NCBI RefSeq assembly: GCF_001880325.1
Contig: NZ_CP016312.1
Span: forward strand, 1,674,001-1,738,000
Reading direction: 5' to 3'
DNA: 64,000 nucleotides
From: Thermus brockianus
GTDB taxonomy: Bacteria > Deinococcota > Deinococci > Deinococcales > Thermaceae
Below, piece by piece: positions 61,162-64,000 of the stretch. The translations under genes and the position numbers were made by a program. Within the stretch, counting starts at the first letter, position 1. Each line of letters opens with the position of its first letter. A model generated the notes under the pieces. That model ran no database searches, had not been told where the DNA came from, and saw nothing but the letters and a program-made list of their open reading frames with translations.

Positions 61162-61238
61162 GGCGGCGTAGCTCAGGTGGTCAGAGCACACGACTCATAA
61201 TCGTGGTGTCGTGGGTTCGAGTCCCACCGCCGCCACCA
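61162..61238 (+). tRNA. tRNA-Met(CAU), elongator
   Basis: 77 nt including CCA. Acceptor GGCGGCG pairs with CGCCGCC, the D stem is GCTC/GAGC, and the anticodon stem ACGA/TCGT region encloses CTCATAA (anticodon CAT). The T arm is GTGGG TTCGAGT CCCAC. It lacks the initiator features (three G-C pairs at the base of the anticodon stem, a C1 mismatch). It is the likely integration target of the element that follows. Confidence 0.9.
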
Positions 61239-61240
61239 GT

Positions 61241-61272
61241 GCCCCGGGAAGCTTCTTCCCGGGGCCTTTCTT
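61241..61272 (+). terminator. tRNA-Met terminator
   Basis: An 11-bp perfect stem (GCCCCGGGAAG with CTTCCCGGGGC, 3-nt loop) followed by CTTTCTT. Confidence 0.8.
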
Positions 61273-61329
61273 ATCGCCAAAATCCCGCCTTTCCGGAAAC
61301 GGGCGGACACCCCCCTGCCGACGCGTCAT

Positions 61330-61387
61330 CCGAACACAATCATCTGAATGAACCGGGTACAAAACCGAACACAAGGGGGGTTGTGTG
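61330..61387 (+). promoter_or_regulatory. repeats and dyad at the integrase start
   Basis: CCGAACACAA occurs twice (61330-61339 and 61365-61374), 35 bp apart. The second copy forms an inverted repeat, ACACAA-GGGGGG-TTGTGT, that covers the GTG start of the integrase (61385). These could be recombinase arm sites or an operator for autoregulation. Confidence 0.45.
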
Positions 61388-62263
61388 GAAAGGCTTTCGG
61401 AATGGCTTGGAGTGTTCCTGCAGGACGGGAAGGCGCGGGGATTGTCGCCCAGAACCTTGGCCTTTTATCGGGAGGGGGTGAATAGCATGCTTAGGATTGT
61501 GGGGGACAAGCGGGCGCAGGACCTGGCGCCCTCGGACCTTAGGGCTTTCCTGGCGCGTTCCCACGAGGAAGGGCTTAGCCCCGGCGGGGTTGTGGCCCGC
61601 TACCGGGCGGTGCGGGCGTTTGTTAGGTGGCTTGTGCGGGAGGGTGTTTTGGAGCATGACCCTACGGCCAGGATTAGGCCCCCCAAGGCCCCGCCCCCGG
61701 ACCTTGCGGTGGTGCGCCCCGGGGAGATACGCAGGATGCTTCTGGCGGCGGATGGGGGGCGGCACCCCTTCCGCGATAAAGCGATACTGCTTTTGCTTTG
61801 GGATACCGCCGCGCGGATAGGGGAGATTGTGGGGCTTAGGCTTGAGGACTTCCGGCCCGAAGGGATAAGGGTAAGGCGCAAGGGCGGGGCCTACCAAGTG
61901 CTTCCCATTTCGCCCCCTACGCGGAGGGCGGTTTGGGCTTACCTTAGGAACGAAAGGCCGGAAAGCCCAAGCGATGCCCTATTCCTAAGCGCCACGGGGA
62001 GGCCGATAAGTAGCGATGCGGTCCGGCAAATGCTACGGCGGCTTGCTAGGGCGGCGGGTGTCCCCTATAAGTCCCCGCATGCCTTCCGTAGGGGGGCCGC
62101 GGTGGTCATGGTGAAAAACGGGATTAACCCTTATGCCCTCCAGGTCCTAATGGGGCACAAGTCCCCGGCCATGACCGCCCACTATGTGCGGCTTGCGGAA
62201 AAGGACCTTAAGGAGATACACGCGAAGGTCGCACCGGCCCTCGGGCTATTGCGGGACATCTAG
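61385..62263 (+). CDS. tyrosine recombinase/integrase
   Basis: 292 residues, XerC/D-like. The N-terminal SAM-like core-binding domain is seen in LSEWLGVFLQDGKARGLSPR and VARYRAVRAFVRWLVREGVL. In the catalytic domain the Arg is in LLLWDTAARIGEIVGLRLED, the Lys in GIRVRRKGGAYQVLPI, HxxR in KSPHAFRRGAAVVMVKNGIN and the H and nucleophile Tyr in LMGHKSPAMTAHYVRLAEKD. All active residues are present. It lies 147 bp downstream of tRNA-Met and uses more A/T-ending codons than the flanking genes, which fits a mobile element. Its end overlaps the convergent nuclease-like gene by 18 bp. Confidence 0.92.
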   Translation: MERLSEWLGVFLQDGKARGLSPRTLAFYREGVNSMLRIVGDKRAQDLAPSDLRAFLARSHEEGLSPGGVVARYRAVRAFVRWLVREGVLEHDPTARIRPPKAPPPDLAVVRPGEIRRMLLAADGGRHPFRDKAILLLLWDTAARIGEIVGLRLEDFRPEGIRVRRKGGAYQVLPISPPTRRAVWAYLRNERPESPSDALFLSATGRPISSDAVRQMLRRLARAAGVPYKSPHAFRRGAAVVMVKNGINPYALQVLMGHKSPAMTAHYVRLAEKDLKEIHAKVAPALGLLRDI

Positions 62264-62746
62264 AACGGCGGGTTCCACTTCTTCTAGGGGAACGCGCCAG
62301 ACTAGGCTAATCCAGGTGCGCCCCCCGTAGCCCTCGGTCCGGGTTTCCCTAAGGTAATCCCCCCATCGGGCCCTGTTCGCTTCGGCAATAGCCCGAAGGG
62401 TGGGCAAGTGAAGGACCAGAAGCCCATCGGTGTAGACCACGATGAGGAGTTCCGCCGGGGAAGTCCAAAGCCATCCCGGGGTGCCCCTGTCCAGGTCTGC
62501 CGTGGTTTCCAGGAACACGGCGGCGTGCTTCAGGGGGTGTAATGAGCCCCGGTAGCGCTTGATTTGCACGGGGATGGGAAAGTGGGGGCGACGGATTATC
62601 AGGTCCACGCCGCGCCGGTCAAGGTCTGAGGGTGCGGGTTCTATGGGGCATCCGGGGTAAAGCTTGCCCAGAAGGGCCAGGACTTGGGGGTCTTTCTCGG
62701 CGGCCCTACCAAAGTCCAGGTCCTGGGCAAAGGGCCGCGCGGTCAT
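62246..62746 (-). CDS. small PD-(D/E)XK nuclease-like protein of the element
   Basis: 166 residues. The core DLDRRGVDLIIRRPHFPIPV, then QIKRYRGSLHPLKHA, has the layout of a PD-(D/E)XK nuclease: an Asp on the first strand and Q-x-K on the next, preceded by a helix with KDPQVLALLGKLYPG. A strand LLIVVYTDGLLVLHLP follows. It could be a Holliday-junction resolvase, a restriction-type or an element-processing nuclease; I cannot name a family. The ATG at 62746 overlaps the end of the Rep-like gene by 41 bp, so the two form one transcript. The upstream part of the open frame is a shadow of rep. Confidence 0.6.
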   Translation of the reverse strand: MTARPFAQDLDFGRAAEKDPQVLALLGKLYPGCPIEPAPSDLDRRGVDLIIRRPHFPIPVQIKRYRGSLHPLKHAAVFLETTADLDRGTPGWLWTSPAELLIVVYTDGLLVLHLPTLRAIAEANRARWGDYLRETRTEGYGGRTWISLVWRVPLEEVEPAVLDVPQ

Positions 62747-63971
62747 GGTCCACCCCCAGAAGGGCGCTAAGCCTTCGTAGGTCGGGGGGTGGGGGTAGGT
62801 CCACGGCTTGGCAGAAGCTTTCCAGGGCATCGCGGGCGGCTTGGCGGACCACCGGCGAAGGGGACTCGAGGCCCCGGAGGTTAGCCGCCAGGAACCTCGG
62901 GGGGTCCACCACGACCACACCGGGGGCCAAGGGGATGGGTCCTTGGGGAAGGGCCGGTTGTTTCCCCGGGAAACGCTTGGGGGAACGGCCTTCGCGCCCC
63001 GTGGAGGCCCAGAAGCCCCGCGCCCCAAGGAGGGCGTCATAGTGGCGCCTTTGGCCGGCCTTGGCCAGGTAGCGGGCGGCGGCCTTGGGGTTTTGCAGTT
63101 CCTCGGCGTGGCGCAGTTCCAAGCCCGAACGCCGGGCGAGGGTGCGCAAGCGCGCAATGGGGAGCCCTTCGGTGATTAGGTGCGCATGGGGATAGAAGGC
63201 CCCATCCCCGGCCCGCGTTTCCACCACCAGGGCGAAGGCCACCCCTTCGCGGCGCAAACGGCCGGCAAGGGCGGAGAAAGCTTGCCCCACTTCAGGGGGG
63301 ACGGCGGCCAAGCGGCGGGCTTCCTCGGAAGGGGGAACAGGGGGGACGAGGGTCGCGAAAATAGCCTCCCCCCGGCCCGCAAGGGCCTCGGCGACCGCGT
63401 CAAGTTTTTCGCGGCGGCGCTTGTAAGTGGCGGGTTTCGCAAGGGACCGGAAGCGACGGGACTTCCGAGGACGCCCCCGCCGCCTTTTGGGGGAGGGCGC
63501 TATCGGCGGTGCCGGGTCATCTTCCCCGTCATCGTCCCCGCTTTCGTCGTCCTCTTCATCCTCGGGAGGCCCATTAGAAGGGGCATTAAGGTTGAGGGGG
63601 GTGCGGGCCCGGGGTTGGGAACGGGGGCGGTGGAAGGGGATGGTTTTTATAACCCGCCTTCGTAGAACCTCGGGAACAATCCTGTTGTTGTGGTGCTCCA
63701 CGTCTAGCGCGGCGTACCTTTCCCAAAAGTGCAGGGCTTCGTCATAGACGCGGGCCTTAAGGATAGGGTCAATGCGGGCCTTCTTGCGCTTCTTGGGCTT
63801 CTTGCGGTTGTAAAGGTGGATCCACACATAGGTGCGTATCAAGCGCCCTTTGGCGCGTTCTTTGCGCTTTTCTACCCCGCATTCAATTCTATTTTGACGC
63901 CCTTCCGAACGCCTTTTCCACCGGGGTTGACGCCGTTTTAGGCTTTTTGATATAATGTTCTCAGGTAGCAT
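62706..63971 (-). CDS. putative HUH rolling-circle replication initiator (Rep-like)
   Basis: 421 residues. A basic N-terminus (KSLKRRQPRWKRRSEGRQNR, then KKPKKRKKAR) leads to a low-complexity acidic linker (PPEDEEDDESGDDDGEDD) and a basic patch. The catalytic part follows: IFATLVPPVPPSEEARRL resembles Rep motif 1, ALVVETRAGDGAFYPHAHLI contains the His-x-His of HUH motif 2, and AARYLAKAGQRRHYDALLGA, then RGFWASTG, places a Tyr-x-x-x-Lys motif 3 ahead of an R-G-F-W-x-S stretch typical of plasmid and phage Reps. GGGGAGG precedes the ATG at 63971. It is only 29 bp from the window edge, so its promoter is not fully visible. Confidence 0.65.
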   Translation of the reverse strand: MLPENIISKSLKRRQPRWKRRSEGRQNRIECGVEKRKERAKGRLIRTYVWIHLYNRKKPKKRKKARIDPILKARVYDEALHFWERYAALDVEHHNNRIVPEVLRRRVIKTIPFHRPRSQPRARTPLNLNAPSNGPPEDEEDDESGDDDGEDDPAPPIAPSPKRRRGRPRKSRRFRSLAKPATYKRRREKLDAVAEALAGRGEAIFATLVPPVPPSEEARRLAAVPPEVGQAFSALAGRLRREGVAFALVVETRAGDGAFYPHAHLITEGLPIARLRTLARRSGLELRHAEELQNPKAAARYLAKAGQRRHYDALLGARGFWASTGREGRSPKRFPGKQPALPQGPIPLAPGVVVVDPPRFLAANLRGLESPSPVVRQAARDALESFCQAVDLPPPPDLRRLSALLGVDHDRAALCPGPGLW

Positions 63972-64000
63972 GTTGTTTTCCTCCCCGGGGGCATTGAGCC

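Follow-up and report, generated by a model that had tools for sequence, protein, structure and literature searches.

A three-gene element in a tRNA-Met gene of Thermus brockianus, a probable minimal integrative plasmid pairing a tyrosine integrase with a HUH Rep-like protein

Architecture of the element at tRNA-Met

The window analysed here, 64,000 nucleotides of the Thermus brockianus genome (C1:1674001-1738000; G000 in the comparisons), ends inside a small element that begins within a tRNA-Met gene. Its features are listed in window coordinates, continued as window-equivalent positions beyond the window's end:

61162-61238, plus strand: tRNA-Met (CAT), the integration target, whole at the attL side (ARAGORN)
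61194-61243, plus strand: 50-bp attL core, beginning in the anticodon loop and ending 5 nt beyond the tRNA (identical attR copy)
61241-61265, plus strand: terminator-like hairpin behind the tRNA, 11 pairs and a T-rich tail (one consensus match)
61385-62263, plus strand: tyrosine integrase, 292 aa (PF00589, Phage_integrase, E 9.7e-30)
62249-62746, minus strand: PD-(D/E)XK-like protein, 166 aa, with an Hjc-like model (invariant residues, Foldseek)
62706-63971, minus strand: HUH Rep-like protein, 421 aa (motifs, predicted fold, link to Rep_1)
63972-64000, continuing to window-equivalent 64694: non-coding candidate origin region (repeats, low GC)
window-equivalent 64255-64509: three repeat units of ~71 nt
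window-equivalent 64695-64744 (C1:1738695-1738744): attR core, outside the window (genome search)

The first-pass annotation had placed an integrated unit at this tRNA-Met and pointed to a repeat of the tRNA 3' end beyond position 64000 as its far boundary. Searching the whole genome with the element DNA revealed this repeat, a second copy of the 50-bp core that is 100% identical to the first and starts 3,501 bp from it, which gives the element a length of 3,501 bp with three genes inside. The core runs from the tRNA-Met anticodon loop through the CCA end and five more bases. The interval originally annotated (61162-64000) contains the tRNA and the genes but is incomplete: the element itself extends from window position 61194 as far as window-equivalent 64694, and the last base of attR, at 64744, falls about 745 bp outside the window. 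At attL the tRNA-Met is complete and is followed by a terminator-like hairpin supplied by the element; this hairpin is a single consensus match, in a region where the total of such matches is not above that in shuffled sequence. A further hairpin lies behind attR, and the next gene is miaB-like, named from its sequence.

A joined-flank query matches through the junction in six other Thermus genomes (G028, G042, G041, G027, G035 and G024), with short gaps in the terminator region. These are the empty tRNA-Met sites that had been sought in other Thermus strains, and the tRNA-Met/miaB order without an insert in sister species therefore identifies the element as an insertion. The annotated drop in GC content is present but mild overall (62% in the element versus 67% in the window), and it is concentrated in the non-coding part, at 56%.

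The integrase, annotated as intact and XerC/D-like, starts 147 bp after tRNA-Met and retains the whole catalytic R-K-H-R-H-Y set (R144, K166, H232, R235, H258 and Y267). With identical direct repeats, an integrase that has its catalytic residues and an empty site, this is a complete tRNA-integrated tyrosine-integrase element. Inspection of the open reading frames between the att sites revealed no convincing gene beyond the integrase, the Rep-like protein and the PD-(D/E)XK-like protein. No gene for a coupling protein lies between the att sites, and none of the three genes encodes an FtsK/SpoIIIE-type protein of the kind that marks an AICE. No excisionase was recognised within the element, which weighs against reading it as an integrative plasmid.

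The Rep-like protein, the nuclease and the non-coding repeats

The first of the two minus-strand proteins had been credited with HUH features, and three lines of evidence agree with this. The ATG of its gene is preceded by GGAGG, and the protein carries FATL as motif I (FxTL in the alignment), an invariant PHAH as motif II, and RYLAK as motif III, of which RY is invariant. The lysine three residues after the tyrosine of motif III is present in the Thermus copies and missing in the Rep of G002, a member of another Thermaceae genus, and this counts against the assignment. The predicted core has the order beta-alpha-beta-beta-alpha-beta-alpha; HAH lies on a central strand and Tyr301 in the helix that comes next. 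The pLDDT is mostly 80-91 in the core and lower around Tyr301, and the whole chain, with a mean of 58, is poorly modelled. Foldseek returned 141 viral matches at E values up to 0.001, the best at 1.9e-7. Most are nameless, and the named ones are initiators of replication or proteins associated with it, Microvirus accounting for several. Matches in the PDB are weak and include the Vientovirus Rep endonuclease domain and the parvovirus NS1 nuclease.

No family in the curated libraries searched, Pfam included, accounts for the Rep-like protein; Pfam matches to DUF6965 and HEAT were below cut-off and were set aside. A profile search of the phylum found a Rep_1 protein of G052 (E 5e-4), and hhalign aligned all three motifs with it (E 3.2e-6, probability 88%). 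This G052 protein belongs to another replicon and was rejected as a further carrier of the element. The Pfam model for Rep_1 (PF01446) matches none of the three Reps, which leaves them outside that family as Pfam defines it and makes the link through G052 an indirect one. Because motifs, predicted fold and this link to Rep_1 coincide, assignment as a Rep-type HUH endonuclease is supported at the level of sequence and model.

In the Rep-like protein HAH (residues 262-264) precedes Tyr301; HUH ahead of Tyr is, as generally understood, the order of Rep proteins and unlike that of canonical relaxases. This order speaks against a rival reading in which the HUH protein is chiefly a non-canonical relaxase and the element a minimal IME, its non-coding region acting as an oriT on which another element's conjugation or transjugation apparatus would work. 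Two points lend that reading some weight. RCR initiators and relaxases overlap in function, as 118 among 144 streptococcal IMEs have relaxases related to RCR initiators and 35 of these lack a coupling protein (PMC5704250); and ICETh1 provides Thermus strains with a DNA-donation system (PMC7767461). However, the element has no coupling protein between its att sites and its repeated units look more origin-like than a single oriT would, and we therefore regard a mobilizable element of this type as rather unlikely.

The second minus-strand gene, annotated as PD-(D/E)XK-like, starts within the Rep gene, overlapping it by 41 nt here and by 4 nt in the relatives. E17, D48, Q61 and K63 are invariant across the aligned copies. 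The D-to-Q spacing of 13 (D48 to Q61) is that of Hjc enzymes. No sequence-family match was found in the libraries searched. The top Foldseek match of the model is the Holliday-junction resolvase ST1444, with a probability of 1.00 but an E value of 1.6e-3 and a TM score of 0.37-0.46, and the list continues with other Hjc and RecU entries. Residues and model together are suggestive of an Hjc-type Holliday-junction resolvase, short of proof.

Between the Rep gene and attR lies a gap of about 720 bp with lower GC content and ~71-nt repeats, and the G002 element carries two copies of the same ~71-nt unit. A consensus derived from the repeat units, TTTGTNNGNTTTGGNNNNTACCMGT, matches at three places in G000 and at two in G002, always in these non-coding regions; it was found nowhere else in the 50 genomes, and the reversed-pattern control gave no match. 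A single viral-contig match to TTTGTNNGNTTTGGNNNNTACCMGT falls within a phage-like gene and was judged to be chance. Each G002 unit opens with a hairpin; in G000 the middle unit is covered by a longer hairpin. On the strength of its sequence, the repeat region is a candidate replication origin; no nick site could be named in it, which counts against this role. The repeats may alternatively serve as arm sites for the integrase.

Relatives and other islands at tRNA genes

The Rep-like protein was found in four of the 50 Thermaceae genomes. The nuclease occurs in the same four among 111 genomes of the phylum, as does a close integrase, so that most Thermus genomes lack the three genes, in favour of the first-pass reading. 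Identities to the T. brockianus copy are as follows:

Integrase: 90% in G032, 67% in G002
Nuclease: 67% in G032, 58% in G002
Rep-like protein: 57% in G032, 41% in G002

In G002 an intact homologue occupies tRNA-Lys, flanked by 49-bp repeats spaced 3,755 bp apart; its gene order and strands are identical to those of the Thermus element and it contains no other genes. A simple Nei-Gojobori count gives dN/dS values between 0.11 and 0.37, which points to constraint on amino acid changes in the element genes, although dS is close to saturated in most of the comparisons.

G032 and G033 also carry the three genes at tRNA-Met, but there a transposase-like gene abuts the beginning of Rep, and the stretch examined yielded no attR. 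This damaged copy raises the prospect that the element is a dead relic that no longer moves. In G000, however, the att repeats match exactly, all three genes have open frames, and the catalytic residues and the origin repeats have been kept, so that we give little credence to loss of mobility here. Beyond the transposase gene in G033 (C4:11454-13306), and also in G032, lies a pair of genes, one for an OLD-like AAA ATPase and one for a small partner protein, which judged by eye are possibly defence cargo.

Searches of plasmid and phage collections (tblastn with Rep and with Int) revealed no further carrier of the module. Nor was a free circular form found in these collections, which counts against an excising plasmid. 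Scans of IMG/VR and GTDB with Rep, nuclease and integrase found no carrier beyond T. brockianus itself and otherwise gave distant integrases only, at about 25-31% identity. These data bear on a further alternative, a phage satellite or a provirus remnant with a small ssDNA-type genome, which would account for the viral initiators, including those of Microvirus, among the best fold matches of the Rep. However, the element is without a structural or packaging gene, the same three genes and no others recur in two genera and at two tRNAs, and no relative of the Rep or the nuclease was found in IMG/VR or in phage records; a phage origin consequently seems to us, by a narrow measure, the least probable of the readings considered.

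In G030 another island ends at the same tRNA-Met boundary (CTCATAATCG...), next to miaB, and tRNA-Met is therefore a shared target. That island (C43:76000-86124) has an att-like end at about C43:79638 and runs to the contig end; judged by eye, its genes include PIN-like and RecT-like ones. In G032 the Rep element is immediately preceded by a 6.6-kb element (C1:284400-291077), which is flanked by two tRNA-Met copies and encodes its own integrase together with primase-polymerase-like and ATPase/helicase-like proteins. The 99.9%-identical region of G033 is without this 6.6-kb element, which suggests that it inserted recently in G032. A 7.1-kb element at tRNA-Leu in G002 (C1:249728-256877) has 61-bp repeats and an integrase 53% identical to the one described here. 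In place of the HUH Rep it encodes an 892-aa primase/helicase-like protein, and it was therefore rejected as a family member. This type of integrase thus seems to be common to different replication modules.

Proposed life cycle and comparison with known systems

Taken together, the att repeats, the empty sites, the G002 homologue, the integrase residues, the fold and motifs of the Rep, the private repeat motif and the dN/dS values lead us to read the element as a minimal integrative plasmid that is excised by Int and replicated by rolling circle, with a probability of about 0.75. In the proposed cycle, attP and the 3' half of tRNA-Met would be recombined by Int; the anatomy of the site shows that the element restores the tRNA and brings a terminator-like hairpin along. 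Excision would again depend on Int, without a recognisable excisionase. The HUH Rep could then nick within the repeat-rich non-coding region via Tyr301, and rolling-circle replication would proceed with host polymerase and helicase, while the Hjc-like nuclease probably processes branched replication or recombination intermediates. The element has no transfer gene, and its passage from cell to cell would therefore depend on an outside route, which could be natural transformation, transjugation or another element.

Elements that pair a tyrosine integrase with an RCR initiator have been described before, namely pSAM2-type AICEs (PMC3218068), streptococcal IMEs (PMC5704250) and a thaumarchaeal element (PMC6563490). 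The AICEs share the integrase, the rolling-circle initiator and, commonly, a location in a tRNA gene (PMC3218068). They differ in having an FtsK-like transfer protein and, in nearly all Frankia examples, Xis, neither of which was found here; the Thermus element is also far smaller, and AICEs were restricted to Actinomycetales in that study (PMC3218068). Streptococcal IMEs likewise combine an integrase with an RCR-related HUH protein and are without a conjugation apparatus of their own (PMC5704250), whereas the Thermus Rep falls in no named family by sequence search, a coupling protein is missing and the host belongs to Deinococcota. The thaumarchaeal NitAQ6f-E2, with an RCR initiation endonuclease, and NitUzo-E2 (2.6 kb) are likewise described as small, cryptic integrated elements (PMC6563490); they are archaeal, and no Hjc-like partner is mentioned for them (PMC6563490).

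Within the genus, ICETh1 and ICETh2 of Thermus thermophilus HB27 are also integrated at tRNA genes between direct att repeats, of 47 nt in ICETh2 (PMC7767461, PMC7693054). Both are larger and differ in site and gene content: ICETh1 lies at tRNA-Ile, is about 14.9 kb long and encodes a DNA-secretion system, and ICETh2 lies at tRNA-Val, measures 11.3 kb and encodes a primase-polymerase and a helicase (PMC7767461, PMC7693054). The initial view that the unit is not one of the described Thermus ICEs therefore holds. The Rep itself resembles the pC194/pUB110-type initiators of Rep_1 (PF01446) in having the three motifs in the same order and in being alignable with the G052 protein; it departs from them in its lack of a Pfam match, its basic, poorly conserved N-terminal region and its distinct C-terminal part.

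No description of this element was found in the literature searched, which comprised open-licence texts. What appears to be new is the Rep family, the nuclease family, the minimum of three genes and the host phylum. Because a relative in another genus has the same layout at a different tRNA, the element seems to represent a family of very small integrating plasmids that has yet to be described. A more far-reaching proposal, which we make tentatively and with the odds somewhat against it, is that Thermaceae harbor a new family of minimal integrating replicons in which a new HUH initiator family and an obligatory Hjc-like partner act at an origin of ~71-nt repeats, and which, having no transfer gene itself, spreads through natural competence or transjugation.

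It is hard to conceive of an integrating rolling-circle replicon much smaller than this element, with its three genes, one origin region and two att sites. The element could provide a base for a Thermus integration or replication vector and offers a heat-stable, testable model for how an integrase is combined with a HUH Rep. It also gives a likely function to two proteins, an uncharacterised Rep and a resolvase-like one, and shows that in Thermaceae integrase and replication modules share tRNA targets.
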